Virus record (IMG/VR): IMGVR_UViG_3300030108_002714
Span: 1 to 32,727 of that record
From: a virus
Length of the DNA stretch: 32,727 nucleotides
Reading direction: 5' to 3' (one strand)
This document shows positions 142-31,649 of the stretch, one piece after another (positions within the stretch are counted from its first letter, which is position 1; each line of letters opens with the position of its first letter). The position numbers and the translations under genes are program-made. Below the pieces are notes generated by a model that was not told the origin of the DNA, did no database searches, and worked only from the letters and a program-made list of their open reading frames with translations.

Positions 142-431
142 TGTTCGATAGTGAAAGCCATACGGCGATACCAGATCCTTTTGTATTTACGAGTAACAAC
201 AGAGGTCATTCGCCAGAAGAAATGGCTGAGATGGCCATGAACAAAATTATGGTAGTATCCAAAGATGCTCCCCCAGTTATACGGGATCAAGCGATAGCAC
301 ATAGAGATAAGTTGAAGGAAATATTGATTTTCTATATGAATAGAATGGCCCAAAGTGAGAGAACTACTATTTGGGCTCTTATGAGGCAACAAGGCCATGA
401 GGACATGGCTGAGATTATAAGGAGACTATAA
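141..431 (+). CDS. Small conserved phage protein, function unknown
   Basis: This 96-residue protein starts in a TAATG overlap with the partial gene before it and ends in the same type of overlap (TAATG at 429-433) with the gene after it. It is acidic at the N-terminus, then largely helical: residues 24-95 contain a methionine-rich stretch (EEMAEMAMNKIMVV) and end in GHEDMAEIIRRL. There is no signal peptide, membrane segment or enzymatic motif. The position between an adaptor-like gene and structural beta proteins suggests a virion or assembly role, but I do not recognise the family well enough to name it. Confidence 0.75.
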   Translation: MFDSESHTAIPDPFVFTSNNRGHSPEEMAEMAMNKIMVVSKDAPPVIRDQAIAHRDKLKEILIFYMNRMAQSERTTIWALMRQQGHEDMAEIIRRL

Positions 432-940
432 TGGCCGTTGGTACTTCCGCAATGTGCGGTACTTTTAAAAGAGAAATACTTGCTGGTATTCACCGTTTAA
501 CTGCGCATACCAGAACGGGATCTAGTGCTATTTCAGCGGACACGTTCAAGGTTGCCATGTTTACCAATAGTTCGTCCATTGACGCGGACACCACTGGGTA
601 CACAACTAGTAACGAGGTTTCTGGCACGAACTACTCCGCTGGAGGGGCCGCTCTTAGCAGCGTGACCATTGGGCTTGCGGACAATAGTAGTGCGGTGCCA
701 ACAGCCTTTGTTGATTTTGCAGATACCACTTTTTCTTCTTCAACCATTTCTAGCGCGAGAGGAGCTTTGATATACAACTCAACTCTTTCCACGGCTGGAA
801 CTGGATCTACCACAAACCATGCTGCGGACCCCGCAGTAGCGGTAATTAATTTTGGAGGGGACAAATCTTCAAGCGCAGGTGATTTTACAATTCAATACCC
901 TGCAAATGATGCAAATAACGCGGTAATTAGGATTTCCTAA
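431..940 (+). CDS. Beta-rich virion structural protein
   Basis: This is a 169-residue protein rich in Ser, Thr, Ala and Gly. After an N-terminal segment (MCGTFKREILAGIHRL) comes a pattern of short beta strands such as DTFKVAMFTNSS and ALIYNSTLSTAG. The layout 'short helical start, then KVALYT-like strand' is common in small structural proteins of marine phages whose exact role is undefined. It is coupled at both ends by TAATG overlaps and sits directly before fibre-type genes, so a tail or decoration role is likely. No catalytic residues are visible. The function is inferred from composition and context only. Confidence 0.75.
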   Translation: MAVGTSAMCGTFKREILAGIHRLTAHTRTGSSAISADTFKVAMFTNSSSIDADTTGYTTSNEVSGTNYSAGGAALSSVTIGLADNSSAVPTAFVDFADTTFSSSTISSARGALIYNSTLSTAGTGSTTNHAADPAVAVINFGGDKSSSAGDFTIQYPANDANNAVIRIS

Positions 941-1698
941 TGACTACAACGGTTACCGTAACTGTTGTTAGCACTGATAGCGGCAATAAATATGCTCTCA
1001 ATGGTAATCAACAGGCCACTATAAACTTATTAGAAGGAGCAACGTATAAGTTTGACCAAGCGGATAGTTCTAATTCGTCACATCCTCTTAGGTTTTCAAC
1101 AACATCAGATGGAAGTCACAACAGTGGATCCGAGTACACCACTGGAGTAACAACTTCTGGAACTCCAGGAAACGCAGGAGCTTACACTCAGATTACCGTC
1201 GCTGTAGGAGCGCCCACTCTTTACTACTATTGCACTAGTCACCCTGGAATGGGTGGTGTTGCAAATACAGATGTTGCCATATCAGGTTGGAATAGAGGAA
1301 CTTGGAACGAAGGCACTTGGAATAGTCCGCTTCCAGTTACTCTTACAGGAGTTTCGGCGGCGAGTGCGATAGGAACTGCGGTAGCGTCCATAGAGGGTGA
1401 TGTTGTTGCCACAGGAGTTTCGGCGGCGAGTGCGATAGGAACTCCTTCTGTGTTTTCTGCTGCGGCGTTACAGATTTCTGGCGTATCGGCAGCAAGTGCA
1501 ATAGGAAGCGTGATTGCGGAAACTAATTCTACTGCTTCCGTAACAGGAGTTTCGGCGGCGAGTGCGATAGGAAGTGTACAGATTAATTTCTCTTTCACGG
1601 TAACTGGAGTTTCAGCAGAAGGAAAAGCCAACAACGCCTTAGTTTGGAGTTCTATTGATGAATCACAGACACCAAATTGGGTTAAAATAGCGGCATAG
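940..1698 (+). CDS. Virion protein with cupredoxin-like domain and 22-residue repeats
   Basis: This 252-residue protein has two parts. Residues 1-110 look like a cupredoxin: beta strands, an LLEGATYKFDQ strand, SHPLRFS containing His48, and YYYCTSHPGMGG containing Cys98, His101 and Met104. The C-x2-H-x2-M spacing is that of amicyanin-type blue copper proteins, so all four type-1 copper ligands appear present. Residues about 116-131 carry a GW/TW-rich linker. Residues 137-228 hold repeats starting GVSAASAIG at 137, 159, 181 and 203, with a decayed one at 223. There is no signal peptide, consistent with a virion component made in the cytoplasm. Neighbours are fibre genes. Copper binding is inferred; the domain could serve only as a structural beta sandwich. 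Confidence 0.8.
   Translation: MTTTVTVTVVSTDSGNKYALNGNQQATINLLEGATYKFDQADSSNSSHPLRFSTTSDGSHNSGSEYTTGVTTSGTPGNAGAYTQITVAVGAPTLYYYCTSHPGMGGVANTDVAISGWNRGTWNEGTWNSPLPVTLTGVSAASAIGTAVASIEGDVVATGVSAASAIGTPSVFSAAALQISGVSAASAIGSVIAETNSTASVTGVSAASAIGSVQINFSFTVTGVSAEGKANNALVWSSIDESQTPNWVKIAA
1345..1635 (+). repeat. Tandem 66-bp (22-residue) repeats inside the cupredoxin-like gene
   Basis: Copies begin at 1345, 1411, 1477 and 1543, exactly 66 bp apart, and a partial degenerate copy starts at 1603. The conserved core of each unit encodes GVSAASAIG. Copies 1, 2 and 4 are nearly identical at the DNA level, whereas copy 3 differs at many third positions. This suggests recent duplication or gene conversion of some units. 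It lies in frame and is part of the protein. Confidence 0.9.
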
Positions 1699-1708
1699 GA
1701 ATAAGATC

Positions 1709-3118
1709 ATGGCATCATCATATACAACCAGTTTTGGCATAGAGAAGATAGGGTCTGGGGAACAGTCCGGAGCGTGGGGTACTACGACTAACCACAACCT
1801 TGATATTCTTGACCGGATTGCTTCTTTTAAAGCGGTGGGTCTTTCAGGAACTACGCACACGTTAACGGTTCGAGAAGCTTCACCTGGATCTGGCACAGAG
1901 AACCTTCAAGACGGTATGTATCGTGTGATTAGGTTTACGGGGGCTCTTGGTGCTAATAACACTGTAACGGTGGCTCCTAACACTACCGCCGCATACTTTA
2001 TTATGATAAACGCAACCACCGACTCAGGGTCCAGTGGCCCTTATTCGGTAATTGTGTCTCAAGGTTCTGGTGCGAATATAACCATAGAAAATGGTAAGTC
2101 TGCCATCGTTTACATGGACGGGGCAGGGTCAGGGGCCGCTGTTGTAGATGCTGTAGCTAATTTACAATTGGCTACAGTAACAGCCTCTGGAGACATCACC
2201 GCGAGTGGCACGTTCAATGCTTTAGGTGATACCGCTGCAGACGACAAGGCTGCGATGGGGTATACGTCTGCCGAAGGTCTTATTCTTACGGGGCAAGGTT
2301 CTACGAATGATGTAACTATCAAAAACGATGCGGATGCTGACGTTTTAGAAATTCCTACTGGCGGCACAGATGTAACAGTTGTTGGCAATATTACGGCTGG
2401 AGGAAACCTTGTAGCCACCGGGACGGTAGAACCAGCAGGGGACACTTCTTCAGGAGACAATGCAGCTATTGGTTACACTTCTGCCGAAGGTCTTATCCTT
2501 ACAGGTCAAGGTTCGACCAACGATGTAACAATCAAGAATGACGCGGACGCTGATGTCATTACTATTGCAACAGGGGGAACAGCCGTTGATGTTGTTGGAG
2601 ATCTTACTGCGGCAACTTTAAACGCGGACGGGGACACCTCCGCAGGTGATAACGCCGCGATGGGTTACACTTCTGCCGAAGGTCTTATCCTCACAGGACA
2701 GGGTAGCACCTCAGACGTAACCATCAAAAACGATGCAGACGCCACAGTATTTTCTGTAGCAACAGGGACAACCACTGGCACGTTTGCTGGCACTGTTCTG
2801 GCTAAAACAGATACGGATACGTCGAATACAGGAAGCGTTACGTTAGATTTTACGGCTAATCAGAATTTTGTTTTAACGCTTACGGGCAATGTTACACTAG
2901 CTAACCCTTCAACAGAACAGGTTGGTCAGGCTGGCGTGATTGTGTTTATCCAAGACGGCACAGGAAGTAGAACCGTTACTCTTGGAACGGACTACGAAAC
3001 ACCCGCTAGTGCTGGGTTAACTCTCAGTTCAACGGCAAGTGCTGTAGATGTTGTTCCGTACTTTGTAAAAGCCTCTGGCTCTATTCAACTTGGCGCACCA
3101 CAACTGGCATTTGGCTAA
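1709..3118 (+). CDS. Tail-fibre-like protein with tandem repeats
   Basis: This 469-residue protein begins MASSYTTSFGIEKIGSGEQS, followed by GAWGTTTNHNLDILD. That opening is typical of marine phage fibre-type proteins. Residues about 174-355 hold three tandem units of about 64-71 residues built around YTSAEGLILTGQG and DVTIKNDADAD. The C-terminus is a beta-rich domain with NFVLTLTGNVTLANP and GSRTVTLGTDYE strands. Ser, Thr, Gly and Ala dominate and cysteine is absent, as expected of trimeric fibres. It starts 10 bp after the previous stop behind a weak AGGAATAAG ribosome site and ends in TAATG with the next fibre gene. The fibre role is inferred from composition, repeats and context. Confidence 0.8.
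   Translation: MASSYTTSFGIEKIGSGEQSGAWGTTTNHNLDILDRIASFKAVGLSGTTHTLTVREASPGSGTENLQDGMYRVIRFTGALGANNTVTVAPNTTAAYFIMINATTDSGSSGPYSVIVSQGSGANITIENGKSAIVYMDGAGSGAAVVDAVANLQLATVTASGDITASGTFNALGDTAADDKAAMGYTSAEGLILTGQGSTNDVTIKNDADADVLEIPTGGTDVTVVGNITAGGNLVATGTVEPAGDTSSGDNAAIGYTSAEGLILTGQGSTNDVTIKNDADADVITIATGGTAVDVVGDLTAATLNADGDTSAGDNAAMGYTSAEGLILTGQGSTSDVTIKNDADATVFSVATGTTTGTFAGTVLAKTDTDTSNTGSVTLDFTANQNFVLTLTGNVTLANPSTEQVGQAGVIVFIQDGTGSRTVTLGTDYETPASAGLTLSSTASAVDVVPYFVKASGSIQLGAPQLAFG
2228..2790 (+). repeat. Three tandem repeats in the fibre gene
   Basis: Units start at about 2228, 2441 and 2633 (periods 213 and 192 bp). Each encodes D-T-x-x-x-D, then YTSAEGLILTGQG, then DVTIKNDADA. The block after ADA varies in length and sequence between copies, giving a conserved-core, variable-spacer design. 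In-frame units in a fibre gene can change shaft length by recombination. Confidence 0.85.
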
Positions 3119-6000
3119 TGACTATGTTTTCTTCTTTTTGGATGGCGAATGCTGGCGCTGATGCTTTTAGCGTTGATAACAGCGCCGTGTTTAATGACGA
3201 TGATAGTCAGTATTTAATTAGGGAAAATGCGTCGGCCTCTACAACTGGCGGCAGTGATGCCCGTAAAAAGTTTACCGTAAGCCTGTGGTGGAAGCATGGG
3301 AATATTCCAAGCGGCGGCCAAAATCTTTTTATTCAAAGAAACTCAAGTGCCAATTATATGAAATGCGCCATAGCTGGTTCAGGCGGCAATGAAGCTGCTC
3401 TTCAATTTTTTTCGGCTACGTTAGGCGTTTTTAGCACAGGTGATACAACTGCCGTCTTACGAGATTTTCACGCTTGGTATCATATACTATTCTATTATGA
3501 CTCCACGGATTCCACAGCGGGTGATAGGGCAAGGATTTATTTAAACGGAACAAGGTTAACGGATTTTCAAACATCAGCAACTAATCCTTCTAGCGGAGCG
3601 ATTACGCAGTTTGGCTCAAATAATGCAATCGTAATAGGTCAAAACCAAGGAGCCAGCGGATACAGCGATGGTTATATGGCTGAGATGGTTGTTATTGATG
3701 GACAGGCCTTAACCCCATCAAGTTTCACGGAAACTGACAGCAACGGCGTTTTAAGGCCGTTGGATATTTCAGCGCAAAATTTTACATTTGGTGATCAAGG
3801 ATTTTACCTACCGTTTACTAACTCTGCTGGTCTTGGTCAAGATTACAGCGGCGTCTCAACGACAATGATTGCCCAACAGAATACCTATGTTGGCACAAGT
3901 AATGCACACTCAGGAGATGCCTCTACGTTTAAACAAGTTCTGATTGCTGATTTTTCTGCAAAAATCCCAAAGATTGATTTTTTCGCACGGCAATATGATT
4001 GGTCAGGTGTTACTGTCAGAATTGAGACAAACACAGGAAGTAGCCCTGGTGATTCAACGGGAACACTAGTAGATTCCAATGCAGAGATTACTAATGTAAG
4101 CGGATCAAATAATGCTTATGTTACAGCAACTTTTCCTAACGGTGGTCCCGAAGTGGTTGCTGGGACGCAATATTGGATTGTTATTACATCTGGTCAGTTT
4201 GGCTTTGCCGCTCTATCGCCCGCTGGTACTTCCGTAGGACAGGTCGGGATGTATCAAGGTAGTTCATATTCTTCGACTGTTGGTCTATCGCATCGAGTCC
4301 ATTTTACGGGCAATCACTTTATGTCTCGCTCACCAACATCAGGGGCGGCTGGATATACAAGTCATGCACCCACGCAGTCTACCGATACTTGTACGAATAA
4401 CGCAGCAATTTTGTCACCGTTATGGACGGACACCACTCTTTCAAATGGCAACTTAAAAGCTGTCGCCACCGGAAACGCATATCAATGGGCAATCTCTTCT
4501 ATTGCTATCCCTAGTTCTGGAAAATGGACGTGCGAATTTCAATCTTCAAATATAAATGGTTCAAGTTTATACGGTTACATTGGCATTGCTCAGATGGGCA
4601 ATCATGCAAACAAATCTGGCACAGCTAACCGCTATGGGCTTAATGTCGGAAATGGTGAGTTGATGAATGCGGCGGGTAGCACCGTCCACAATTTCTCAAC
4701 CTCATCCTACGCAACTACATTGATGCGACTAGAGTATGATGCGGACGCCGATACCATCAAAATATTCTCAGCGGGTTCTGAAATTTTTCCAGCAAGCACA
4801 GGAGCATCCGCAACTGTTGGATTAACAGGCCAAAACTCCCTCCACTTTTTCTGCGCTCCTTATGGATCAGGGGCAGACTTTACAGCAACTTTCAAAGGTC
4901 TAAGCGGTACCCCAACAAGTGGGTACTTAGAATTAAATACAACTAATTTACTTACTACTTCAACACCTGCTATTGAAGACGGCTCTGCTTATTTTCAAAC
5001 AACGCTATACTCAGGCAATGGTAGTACACAAACTATAACCCAATCAGAAAATAGCACGTTCCAACCAGACATGATCTGGGGGAAACAAACAACTGGTGCG
5101 CAAGAGCCTACAATTTTTGATGCTGTTCGTGGAACTACAAAATATATTCAAACAAATAGTACCGCAGCAGAGGCAACGCAATCAGGTGTTACCGCATTTA
5201 ACAGCAATGGCTTTGATTTAGGATCATGGGCAGTTATGAACGAAAGTTCAAACACACACGTTGCATGGCAGTGGCTTGCTGGTAATTCAACCGCAAGCAA
5301 TTCAAACGGCAGTATTACAAGCAATGTGAGTGTAAATCAGACGGCTGGATTCAGCATAGTAAAGTATACTGGAAACGCAACAGTTGGGGCAACTGTGGGG
5401 CATGGGCTTGGGGCCGTTCCGTCTTGGATCGTAATTAAACCTTTGGGTGTAACTGAGGGTTGGGCGAATTATCACGTAGGAATTGGCAATACGGGAGGGG
5501 TCTATTGGAACTCAACTATAGCAACGGATACTGGCGATTATTACTGGAACGACACAACGCCCAGTTCATCTGTGTTTACGTTGCACGATCACCCGTTAAA
5601 TAATGGCAGCGGCAATGAAATGATTGCCTACTGTTGGTGTGAAAAACCAGGGTTTAGCAAGTTTGGCACCTTTGAGGGTAATGGTTCGTCCACTGACGGC
5701 CCTCTCATAGAGCTTGGGTTTAAACCCGCATGGTTCATATGGAAAAATATTGACTCAGGAACTAACGGTGATTGGACTATAATGGACTCTGTTCGTGATC
5801 CGTTTAACATGGTTGAAAGCAATCTTAGAGCTAATTCAAACATGGCAGCGGATACAGGTGAGGCTGACTTAGATTTTTTAAGCAACGGTGTAAAACATCG
5901 TGGCGGGGCATCAGCCAGATTCAACGCAAGTTCAACGTATCTTTACGCGGCATTTGCAGAACACCCCTTTGCAGGAACAACGCCAGCAACGGCAAGATAG
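3118..6000 (+). CDS. Large receptor-binding or tail-fibre protein with LamG-, SPRY- and DUF7483-like regions
   Basis: This is a 960-residue beta protein. Residues about 20-215 resemble a concanavalin-A/LamG lectin fold: KFTVSLWWKHGN, the AWYHILFYYDS strand and GYMAEMVVIDGQAL. Residues about 255-370 form a second beta domain ending VAGTQYWIVITSGQFGF, as in adhesin-like domains. Residues about 420-570 look SPRY-like (GKWTCEFQSS, YGYIGIAQMG). From about 640 to the end the layout matches the DUF7483 phage domain, with WQWLAG, GFSIVKYTGN, VGHGLGAVPSWIVIK and FKPAWFIWKN followed by a YLYAAFAEHPF ending. The multi-domain sugar-binding composition and the place between fibre genes suggest host recognition. 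Domain names come from memory of the patterns and need a profile search. Confidence 0.8.
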   Translation: MTMFSSFWMANAGADAFSVDNSAVFNDDDSQYLIRENASASTTGGSDARKKFTVSLWWKHGNIPSGGQNLFIQRNSSANYMKCAIAGSGGNEAALQFFSATLGVFSTGDTTAVLRDFHAWYHILFYYDSTDSTAGDRARIYLNGTRLTDFQTSATNPSSGAITQFGSNNAIVIGQNQGASGYSDGYMAEMVVIDGQALTPSSFTETDSNGVLRPLDISAQNFTFGDQGFYLPFTNSAGLGQDYSGVSTTMIAQQNTYVGTSNAHSGDASTFKQVLIADFSAKIPKIDFFARQYDWSGVTVRIETNTGSSPGDSTGTLVDSNAEITNVSGSNNAYVTATFPNGGPEVVAGTQYWIVITSGQFGFAALSPAGTSVGQVGMYQGSSYSSTVGLSHRVHFTGNHFMSRSPTSGAAGYTSHAPTQSTDTCTNNAAILSPLWTDTTLSNGNLKAVATGNAYQWAISSIAIPSSGKWTCEFQSSNINGSSLYGYIGIAQMGNHANKSGTANRYGLNVGNGELMNAAGSTVHNFSTSSYATTLMRLEYDADADTIKIFSAGSEIFPASTGASATVGLTGQNSLHFFCAPYGSGADFTATFKGLSGTPTSGYLELNTTNLLTTSTPAIEDGSAYFQTTLYSGNGSTQTITQSENSTFQPDMIWGKQTTGAQEPTIFDAVRGTTKYIQTNSTAAEATQSGVTAFNSNGFDLGSWAVMNESSNTHVAWQWLAGNSTASNSNGSITSNVSVNQTAGFSIVKYTGNATVGATVGHGLGAVPSWIVIKPLGVTEGWANYHVGIGNTGGVYWNSTIATDTGDYYWNDTTPSSSVFTLHDHPLNNGSGNEMIAYCWCEKPGFSKFGTFEGNGSSTDGPLIELGFKPAWFIWKNIDSGTNGDWTIMDSVRDPFNMVESNLRANSNMAADTGEADLDFLSNGVKHRGGASARFNASSTYLYAAFAEHPFAGTTPATAR

Positions 6001-29783: not shown

Positions 29784-30634
29784 AGTCCGCACATCCCTTC
29801 ACACTCGTTCATCATCTGATCGTCAAACAACTCGCCTTGGCCTCTCTCTTCTGCTGTACTGAAATCAACGTCACGCAACGGTATGCGCTTGGCGTGTAAG
29901 AATCTCGCGCCATGGAATCGCCCCTCTGCCTCACGAATCTTCTCATCAACCTGGCAAGCTTCCTCAAACTCGTCAGGGAATACATCCTTAATACGGCGCC
30001 ACTCATGGTCCGTATGGAACGGGCAACCTATACAAGCACTCTTGGCCAGCGTCCGGTCTGCGTGTTTATCGTTAAACCAACGAAGGCAATCGCGCCGATT
30101 AAAGTCTTCCTCCAACAACGGCCAACGGTTCTCAACCCAAGAGTCTTGACTTGGCTTAACCCGCATCACCTCATCTTTGGATATGCCAATCCACATCTCC
30201 ACCACAAAACCTTTCGGCGTCCGTTGGCGAGGACGTAAGCCAGCCAGTTCTCGAACCTTCTTCCGTATCGGCTTGAGCTTGTACTCACTGGTACACTGCC
30301 TACGGGCCATGCCGTTACTGCCATCTTTGTTTATAAGAAAGAAAGGTATCGACGCGAACTTATGACCCGTGGTGTTCAGATCCGATTCCAAATCTTCTTT
30401 GATGTTGCCCCGCTGCACACGGTACACAGGAAATGATAGTTGCGTCTCTAACCAATCTAAATGGTCATACACTTCCTTGGGTTCCCAACCCGTGTCTGCA
30501 AATACAGCGCAATCGGGCCTTGGACCAATGTCCCCAGCTTCAGCCATCAAAGCCATAACCGTAGACTGAACTCCCGCGCCTAGACTTATGACACGAAACG
30601 ATGGGTTCTCTACAGGCTTGAACATATCACGCAT
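29780..30634 (-). CDS. PAPS-reductase/PP-loop-like protein (adenine nucleotide alpha-hydrolase family)
   Basis: This 284-residue protein begins with a PP-loop variant SLGAGVQSTVMALMAEAG, then CAVFADTGWEP and RQCTSEYKLKPIRKKVR. The C-terminal part has SACIGCPFHTDHEWRRIKD and ends CEGMCGL, giving two cysteine pairs. This layout is that of the phosphoadenosine-phosphosulfate-reductase-like family found in phages beside DNA methyltransferases. PP-loop enzymes adenylate a substrate, and DndC-type relatives act in DNA phosphorothioation. The gene overlaps the cytosine methyltransferase gene by 8 bases. The substrate is unknown. A DNA-modification role is inferred from the neighbour. Confidence 0.85.
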   Translation of the reverse strand: MRDMFKPVENPSFRVISLGAGVQSTVMALMAEAGDIGPRPDCAVFADTGWEPKEVYDHLDWLETQLSFPVYRVQRGNIKEDLESDLNTTGHKFASIPFFLINKDGSNGMARRQCTSEYKLKPIRKKVRELAGLRPRQRTPKGFVVEMWIGISKDEVMRVKPSQDSWVENRWPLLEEDFNRRDCLRWFNDKHADRTLAKSACIGCPFHTDHEWRRIKDVFPDEFEEACQVDEKIREAEGRFHGARFLHAKRIPLRDVDFSTAEERGQGELFDDQMMNECEGMCGL

Positions 30635-31649
30635 AATATGTCTCCCTTATTGCTTCTCCGATTTTTTGCGCGATTTGCGGGACGATGCTGTTTCCCAAGG
30701 CACGGAGTTGAGGTACTCGATTGGGTAGCCCATCAACCAAGCGACCCACTTCGGGTTCAACTTCCCACCACTCTTCGGATCTGCCGCATTCACCGCCGCT
30801 CCAATGTTCCATCCGTGACTCCCGTCCAGATGACTTGGCGCCACACCCTCGCCGCCCGTCATCGATGTCGGAGTCGGCCACAGCTTGACCATGTCTCCCA
30901 GATTTGACTGATGACCCTTTTCCATCCGTGCTTTTATCTTTTCCGGATTTTGATACTCGCCGCCGCCCTTCTCCCTCGCGTTGGGAGTCGGCCAGAACTG
31001 CTCCACCGCGTAGTCCAGCCTGTCGTTCCTGATCTTCCCGTCCTTCCGCACCACCGTTGGTCCGCTGCCCTTGTGGTCGCTGGCTGTCGGAGTCGGCCAC
31101 AAAGTCGAACCCCAACTGCCGCTGTCCCGCGTTGCCATCGAAGGTGCCATCTGGTTCGCTTTCGCTGTCGGCGTGTGCAACAATCCAGAGTCGTCTGCGG
31201 AGGTGCGGGGCTCCTGTCGCGCAAGCTGGTATATCAAACGTCCTTGTGGCGTAGCCTTCGCTTTCCAAGTCAGTGAGTACTTCGTCCAAGCCCAATCGGA
31301 TGAGCCCAACAACGTTTTCTCCAACAATCCAAGTGGGCCTGCATTCCCGGATAAGCCTAAACATTTCTGGCCAGAGATGGCGGGGGTCGTCTTGGGCTTG
31401 CTGCTTTCCCGCTTGACTAAACGGTTGGCAAGGGAATCCTCCGCAAATAACATCGGGTCGGGTCGGGAGATCTCGTCCTTTGACATCTCTTATGTCTCCT
31501 AATACAGGAACATCGGGCCAGTGATATTGTAGCACGGCCCGACAATATGGTTCGTTCTCAACGAAACAGCTCGTCTCAAAAAAATTGGTGGCTTCGAGCC
31601 CTCGCGCAAAACCACCAATCCCTGAAAATAAATCCAATGTGCGTAACAC
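30627..31649 (-). CDS. C5-cytosine DNA methyltransferase (Dcm type)
   Basis: This 340-residue enzyme methylates cytosine in DNA. The start is GTG 31649, overlapping the stop of a 22-residue gene. Motif I is DLFSGIGGFARG (6-17), motif IV GGFPCQPFSQAG (70-81, Cys74 nucleophile), motif VI GENV (110-113), motif VIII APHLRRRLWIV (147-157) and the end RALGNSIVPQIAQKIGEAI (motifs IX-X, from 316). The target-recognition region (about 160-300) is oddly low-complexity, with four ADS units and many Arg, Gly and Ser. The same DNA is open in a second frame and may constrain it. It probably protects phage DNA or resists host restriction. Confidence 0.93.
   Translation of the reverse strand: MLRTLDLFSGIGGFARGLEATNFFETSCFVENEPYCRAVLQYHWPDVPVLGDIRDVKGRDLPTRPDVICGGFPCQPFSQAGKQQAQDDPRHLWPEMFRLIRECRPTWIVGENVVGLIRLGLDEVLTDLESEGYATRTFDIPACATGAPHLRRRLWIVAHADSESEPDGTFDGNAGQRQLGFDFVADSDSQRPQGQRTNGGAEGREDQERQAGLRGGAVLADSQREGEGRRRVSKSGKDKSTDGKGSSVKSGRHGQAVADSDIDDGRRGCGAKSSGRESRMEHWSGGECGRSEEWWEVEPEVGRLVDGLPNRVPQLRALGNSIVPQIAQKIGEAIRETYYA
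30647..31486 (-). CDS. Overlapping-frame protein inside the methyltransferase gene
   Basis: A 279-residue frame, shifted +1 relative to the methyltransferase, is completely open. It contains SGNAGPLGLLEKTLLGSSDW and KYSLTWKAKATPQGRL, then four LWPTPT-type units (LLHTPTAKA, LWPTPTASDHKGSG, FWPTPNAREKGGG and LWPTPTSMTG), KIKARMEKGHQSNLGD and KLNPKWVAWLMGYPIEYL. Such LLPTPTA and LNPEWVEWLMG proteins are, as I recall, seen as stand-alone phage and mobile-element ORFs. The frame may be a second real gene, a frameshift product, or the reason for the odd recognition region. Confidence is moderate because overlapping-frame conservation cannot be tested here. The annotated start (ATG 31486) is the first available. 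Confidence 0.5.
   Translation of the reverse strand: MSKDEISRPDPMLFAEDSLANRLVKRESSKPKTTPAISGQKCLGLSGNAGPLGLLEKTLLGSSDWAWTKYSLTWKAKATPQGRLIYQLARQEPRTSADDSGLLHTPTAKANQMAPSMATRDSGSWGSTLWPTPTASDHKGSGPTVVRKDGKIRNDRLDYAVEQFWPTPNAREKGGGEYQNPEKIKARMEKGHQSNLGDMVKLWPTPTSMTGGEGVAPSHLDGSHGWNIGAAVNAADPKSGGKLNPKWVAWLMGYPIEYLNSVPWETASSRKSRKKSEKQ

Follow-up and report, generated by a model that had tools for sequence, protein, structure and literature searches.

The stretch of DNA analysed (hereafter, the window) comprises the 32,727 nucleotides of the IMG/VR virus record IMGVR_UViG_3300030108_002714, a 32.7-kb fragment. Near its beginning lies a gene coding for a protein of 252 amino acid residues, for which an amicyanin-type copper site in a virion protein had been predicted from the sequence alone; its features and those of the adjacent genes are shown in Table 1. 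His48, Cys98, His101 and Met104 were located at the positions claimed for them, C98 being the sole cysteine in the protein. The Trp-rich linker and the 22-residue repeats described in the original prediction are both real, with repeat units starting at positions 1345, 1411, 1477 and 1543 and a degenerate fifth one at residue 222. Inspection of the N-terminus (MTTTVTVTVV...) revealed no signal peptide, as had been stated. A Pfam search with the 252-residue protein gave no match, and residues 6–118 matched PHROGs families of tail fibre and baseplate wedge proteins. The product of the fibre-like gene immediately downstream contains three copies of a near-identical repeat (YTSAEGLILTGQGST.DVTIKNDADA).

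Table 1. Features of the cupredoxin-domain gene and its neighbours in the window.
Feature	Coordinates	Strand	Evidence or remark
Upstream gene, phrog_644	431..940	+	Adjacent, in relatives, to the gene with the domain
Structural-cluster protein of 252 aa with a cupredoxin domain, a Trp-rich linker, 22-residue repeats and a C-terminal tail (W-x2-I)	940..1698	+	
Cupredoxin domain, residues 1–115	940..1284	+	AF2 model, Foldseek/VIA matches, BFVD model
His48, first predicted copper ligand (cat)	1081..1083	+	Invariant in alignments A2 and A3; aligns to plastocyanin His
Cys98, predicted copper thiolate ligand (tgc)	1231..1233	+	Invariant in A2 and A3
His101, second predicted His ligand (cac)	1240..1242	+	Invariant in A2 and A3
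Met104, predicted axial ligand (atg)	1249..1251	+	Relatives: rarely Leu/Gln, Glu in one split copy
Trp-rich linker GWNRGTWNEGTW / GWNRGTWNEGTWN, residues ~116–127	1285..1323	+	
Four 66-nt (22-aa) tandem repeats, T/S-G-V-S-A-A-S-A-I-G	1345..1608	+	Low model confidence
C-terminal tail ending VWSSIDESQTPNWVKIAA	1633..1695	+	Common to relatives
Downstream tail-fibre-like gene, 469 aa	1709..3118	+	
Fibre / virion structural protein of 960 aa containing DUF7483	3118..6000	+	

The AF2 model of residues 1–115 was obtained with a mean pLDDT of 94.6 and a pTM of 0.88, using an input alignment (A3) of 66 domains, all of them taken from the window itself or from loci that scans of viral contigs had retrieved. 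When this model was compared with the PDB by Foldseek, all of the 50 best matches listed were copper proteins, headed by 2dv6, the three-domain nitrite reductase of Hyphomicrobium (E 1.6e-3, prob 1.00), and including rusticyanin, plastocyanin and laccases. VIA-align superposed 100 residues at 2.6 Å onto residues 25–136 of 2dv6, its N-terminal domain (Z 9.8), and gave Z 8.6 with rusticyanin; Z values of 8.6–9.8 can be common when taken alone, and the matches listed were consistently cupredoxins. These structures, which are among the best matches, belong to an enzyme or to a periplasmic carrier, share 17 percent identity with the window domain and differ from it in their loops. The cupredoxin fold of residues 1–115 recurs in independently made BFVD models for marine phage proteins, among them that of the S-TIM5 virion structural protein (TM 0.96, 60% identity). 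Residues 1–115 are thus modelled as a Greek-key beta sandwich which matches solved cupredoxins. Since the full-length model was unreliable past residue 119, the repeats are assigned no fold.

Sequence searches gave a more divided result. Single-sequence searches of Pfam, NCBIfam and the PDB found no copper family, and were either blank or returned antibody V domains through a YYC motif. The profile of the less diverse alignment A3 likewise ranked antibody V domains first, via the same strand. The profile of alignment A2, built from 67 domains including those of cultured phages and reaching down to 27% identity, matched plastocyanin entries of the PDB (E about 0.008), in which the H, C, H and M ligands were all aligned, and also amicyanins, rusticyanins and a nitrite reductase. 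Because both the single-sequence searches and the A3 profile miss the copper proteins, the assignment to them is drawn from the A2 profile together with the fold search. The window domain did not reach the gathering score of PF00127 (0 Pfam families), a model which gave weak matches in 3 of the 67 relatives (best E 0.001); no NCBIfam match, and hence no assignment to amicyanin TIGR02657, was obtained for the window domain, and aligning the family to one amicyanin sequence with hhalign yielded nothing usable. As judged by curated models, the window domain falls outside the amicyanin, plastocyanin and Pfam copper families. A cupredoxin fold with a predicted copper site in residues 1–115 is nevertheless well supported: the AF2 model, the Foldseek and VIA comparisons and the profile match to plastocyanin all point to the expected fold with the four ligands in register.

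The antibody matches bring in the alternative of a purely structural, Ig-like beta-sandwich surface domain, in which His, Cys and Met would serve for packing and no metal would be bound in nature. In tailed phages, Ig-like domains form mobile beta-sandwich modules of virion proteins exposed at the surface, and the mobile surface role considered below for the window domain resembles theirs; their fold differs from the cupredoxin one, and they have no metal ligands. Relatives of the window domain in P-HM1 (L089, PF07686) and MED4-213 (BFVD M4QD42) are indeed annotated as immunoglobulin (V-set), probably via the shared YYC strand. Only copper proteins, however, were found among the best 50 Foldseek matches, and no Ig domain occurred among the Foldseek and VIA top matches listed, although such a listing alone does not exclude an Ig fold.

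The behaviour of the ligands in relatives bears more directly on this alternative. Only five columns are invariant in the 67-domain alignment (H48, Y96, C98, H101 and M104), so that all four ligands fall among them (hypergeometric P 1.3e-6, for a sequence set part of which was found by patterns containing the Cys/His loop). Since some loci came from such patterns, a separate scan was made with EYTTGVTT alone, a pattern that holds no ligand. H, C, H and M were all kept in 109 of the 111 complete copies recovered (108 in the scripted HCHM class, to which L186 adds one with the four ligands present and Ser after His). The two others had Leu in place of the axial Met (L271) and His replaced by Asp together with Met by Leu (L248). 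Cys and His are thus retained in the relatives, as the copper-site proposal had anticipated.

Leu, Gln and Met are axial residues in known type-1 sites. In the comparison across phages and SAR86, the axial Met is replaced by Gln, with Cys and His kept, in three further loci (L307, L316 and L318); several ligands have been lost together in the first copy of SAR86 locus L308 and in the second copy of S-SM1 SSM1_104. The axial residue alone varies singly, and the other ligands go as a set in rare degenerate copies. These axial-only single changes and joint losses are the behaviour of a metal site, and they would be unexpected of packing residues; with the ligands being the invariant columns, they make the Ig-like alternative unlikely. 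The type-1 copper ligand set appears to be selectively maintained, an interpretation supported by the sequence comparisons.

In some wedge and structural proteins of the cyanophages S-SM1 (L333), S-CAM4 (L093) and S-B64 (L092) the domain occurs a second time, as a copy that is degenerate or split by an insertion. In these second copies several ligands are gone or Glu occupies the axial place, the latter perhaps being the case of the split S-CAM4 copy.

The resemblance to amicyanin claimed in the original prediction was upheld in part. The Cys-x2-His-x2-Met loop has exactly the amicyanin length and aligns without gap to that of 1aac (H53, C92, H95, M98), and both domains are small cupredoxin folds; the spacing from His48 to Cys98, by contrast, is 50 against 39 in amicyanin. 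The first His is followed by Pro in the window domain, whereas His-Asn is found in both amicyanin and plastocyanin. Plastocyanin, whose four ligands align with those of the phage family in the profile match, has two residues more between His and Met than the phage domain. The window domain forms part of a structural protein of a phage, unlike amicyanin, an electron carrier that is free in the periplasm.

The domain gene lies within a cluster of structural genes of the window. Of the loci searched, 198 have a homologue of the upstream phrog_644 gene, and in most of those inspected it is directly upstream of the domain gene. The window polymerase is nearest to those of 023Pt_psg01, DSL-LC04 and the pelagiphages HTVC023P/027P (46–48% identity). 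The freshwater phage DSL-LC04 has a homologous scaffold protein (E 3e-16) at the same position, after adaptor-side genes and the phrog_644 gene, with motifs like the Trp-rich linker but without the domain, and in the marine 023Pt_psg01 a different protein of the structural operon has the domain fused to its front. From these two cases the domain is regarded as an accessory module. Among 223 distinct phage ORFs it was N-terminal in 92, C-terminal in 80 and internal in 48, with tandem copies in 7, and a lipobox-like N-terminus was seen in none of the 223.

The domain was detected by tblastn in 328 of 50,697 phage records at E ≤ 1e-3 (385 at E ≤ 1), all of the carriers having marine-type names or hosts (Synechococcus, Prochlorococcus, Pelagibacter, Methylophilales, marine, uncultured). 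Scans of IMG/VR gave at least 592 and at least 578 confirmed stretches. What had been presented as an unusual trait is therefore no rarity of one phage; it is a widespread marine-phage module. The proteins carrying it include annotated tail fibres (Baldr, HTVC028P, Mosig, Melnitz), the gp9-type wedge-fibre connector together with a wedge subunit (S-ShM2, S-SM1, S-B64) and annotated virion structural proteins (S-TIM61, Syn1, S-CAM4); repeat proteins are among the carriers too. The PHROGs matches agree with the fibre and baseplate wedge annotation of the carriers, and this recurrence in annotated tail fibre and baseplate proteins, with structural neighbours, places the domain in the adsorption module. 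In S-SM1, whose virion proteome has been measured (PMC3037559), both gp9 and the wedge protein hold the domain; in S-CREM2, for which a virion proteome is also published, it was absent from the part of the genome examined (40000–89500). On account of its gene context and of the annotations of its relatives, the 252-residue protein is considered a putative virion component. The observation of a complete type-1 ligand set in a cupredoxin domain within a phage structural-gene cluster was thus confirmed as real, and the interpretation placed on it was partly supported. No cupredoxin or type-1 copper site in a phage virion protein was found reported in a literature search whose scope did not extend to most subscription papers or to bioRxiv preprints.

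Seawater contains little dissolved copper, and that in strong complexes, which would favour occupation of the site by another metal from seawater (Zn, Fe or Ni), the domain then being a metal-stabilised or receptor-directed fibre part. A precedent exists in the HxH motifs of T4 gp37, which, according to PMC11705849, bind iron, are proposed for marine phages too (alterophage R22Y being another example) and are discussed as a 'Trojan Horse' for iron. Both are metal motifs in phage adsorption proteins, but the HxH motifs hold iron in octahedral sites, whereas the window domain would form a folded type-1 copper site with Cys. The iron-binding fibres may be regarded as an analogous idea with a site of another kind. 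Type-1 copper sites have just this set of ligands, in this order and with this kind of axial variation, and the SAR86 relatives described below are lipoproteins; occupation by another metal is consequently rated as improbable.

Outside phages, a match to the domain was found in 96 of 199 SAR86-order genomes, many of them in lipobox proteins. The domain in the SAR86 lipoproteins is 46–63 percent identical to the phage one and has the same ligands, the SAR86 versions being exported with a lipobox and the phage versions being without it. A clear example is a SAR86 protein of 188 residues with an evident lipobox and the domain (L290), and the domain is also found in very long SAR86 proteins. A FastTree of the domain contained 4 changes between phage and SAR86 labels at weak nodes, which gives no safe direction of transfer. 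The SAR86 loci with the domain were L290, L293, L294 and L299–L332, and a SAR86 lipoprotein family of 630–640 residues has a divergent copy ending in CDFHSGM.

A type-1 copper site is redox active by nature, and the same domain is present in the SAR86 lipoproteins. Both facts would agree with a redox or copper-scavenging virion part, exchanging electrons with host surface cuproproteins or delivering or withdrawing copper. However, there is no partner and no electron path for such a function, nor a dose argument, as few copies per virion mean very little copper, and the domain is found in phages of unrelated hosts; we therefore give it little credence. Far less probable still is the accidental fusion of a captured host plastocyanin, an auxiliary metabolic gene, to a structural gene. 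A true petE is known in cyanophages (S-SM1), yet against the family profile the S-SM1 PetE reaches just 2 bits, and on this score the module was judged not to be a captured petE and that origin was rejected. The start of PetE is, moreover, signal-peptide-like, those of the phage domains are not, and the module occurs inside structural proteins of hundreds of phages.

We consider it probable, though by no means assured, that the domain is a mobile type-1 copper module on adsorption proteins, which would acquire its metal after lysis and function in contact with surfaces. This reading draws on the fold, the pattern of ligand conservation and change, the spread over unrelated virion proteins, the lack of the domain in the DSL-LC04 scaffold and the presence in SAR86 lipoproteins. 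A repeat-built protein in a marine phage tail gene cluster would have gained a cupredoxin domain as a mobile surface module. As no signal peptide is present, the domain would be made and assembled in the cytoplasm in its apo form; for the same reason no route through a copper-rich periplasm would be open to it during synthesis, which counts against this reading, as do the Pro after the first His and the antibody matches of the A3 profile. Copper would be taken up after lysis, in seawater, and the bound metal would then lock the ligand loop and stabilise the domain. It would act at the particle surface, touching host or particle surfaces, in a role like that of the Ig-like domains of other phages yet metal-dependent; the adhesive part of this role is suggested by context.

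Among metal sites of phage tails, those for iron (the HxH motifs) are already known. The present site shows almost no variation in many marine phages and occurs in half of the SAR86 genomes sampled; labels such as 'hypothetical', 'tail fibre' and 'immunoglobulin' have kept it hidden. Copper may be present on many marine virus particles, and if copper is bound, marine phages would constitute a pool of protein-bound copper, and metal control of adsorption would be testable in S-TIM5, S-SM1, HTVC028P, Mosig and Melnitz. A farther-reaching proposition, which we hold as speculative and rather doubtful, is that a large share of marine phages has blue-copper centres on the adsorption apparatus, either acquired from SAR86-type surface lipoproteins or common to both, that copper is needed for adsorption or particle stability, and that the state of copper in seawater controls infection.

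Two further observations concern the gene content of these phages. HTVC023P and 023Pt_psg01 (L295, L298) have genes for a 2OG-Fe(II) oxygenase and a ferrochelatase-like protein inside the structural region. In the window, two long ORFs on the minus strand (30627–31649 and 30647–31486) overlap in different frames; a cytosine methyltransferase can be read in one of them, and the other, too, resembles a conserved protein of phages.
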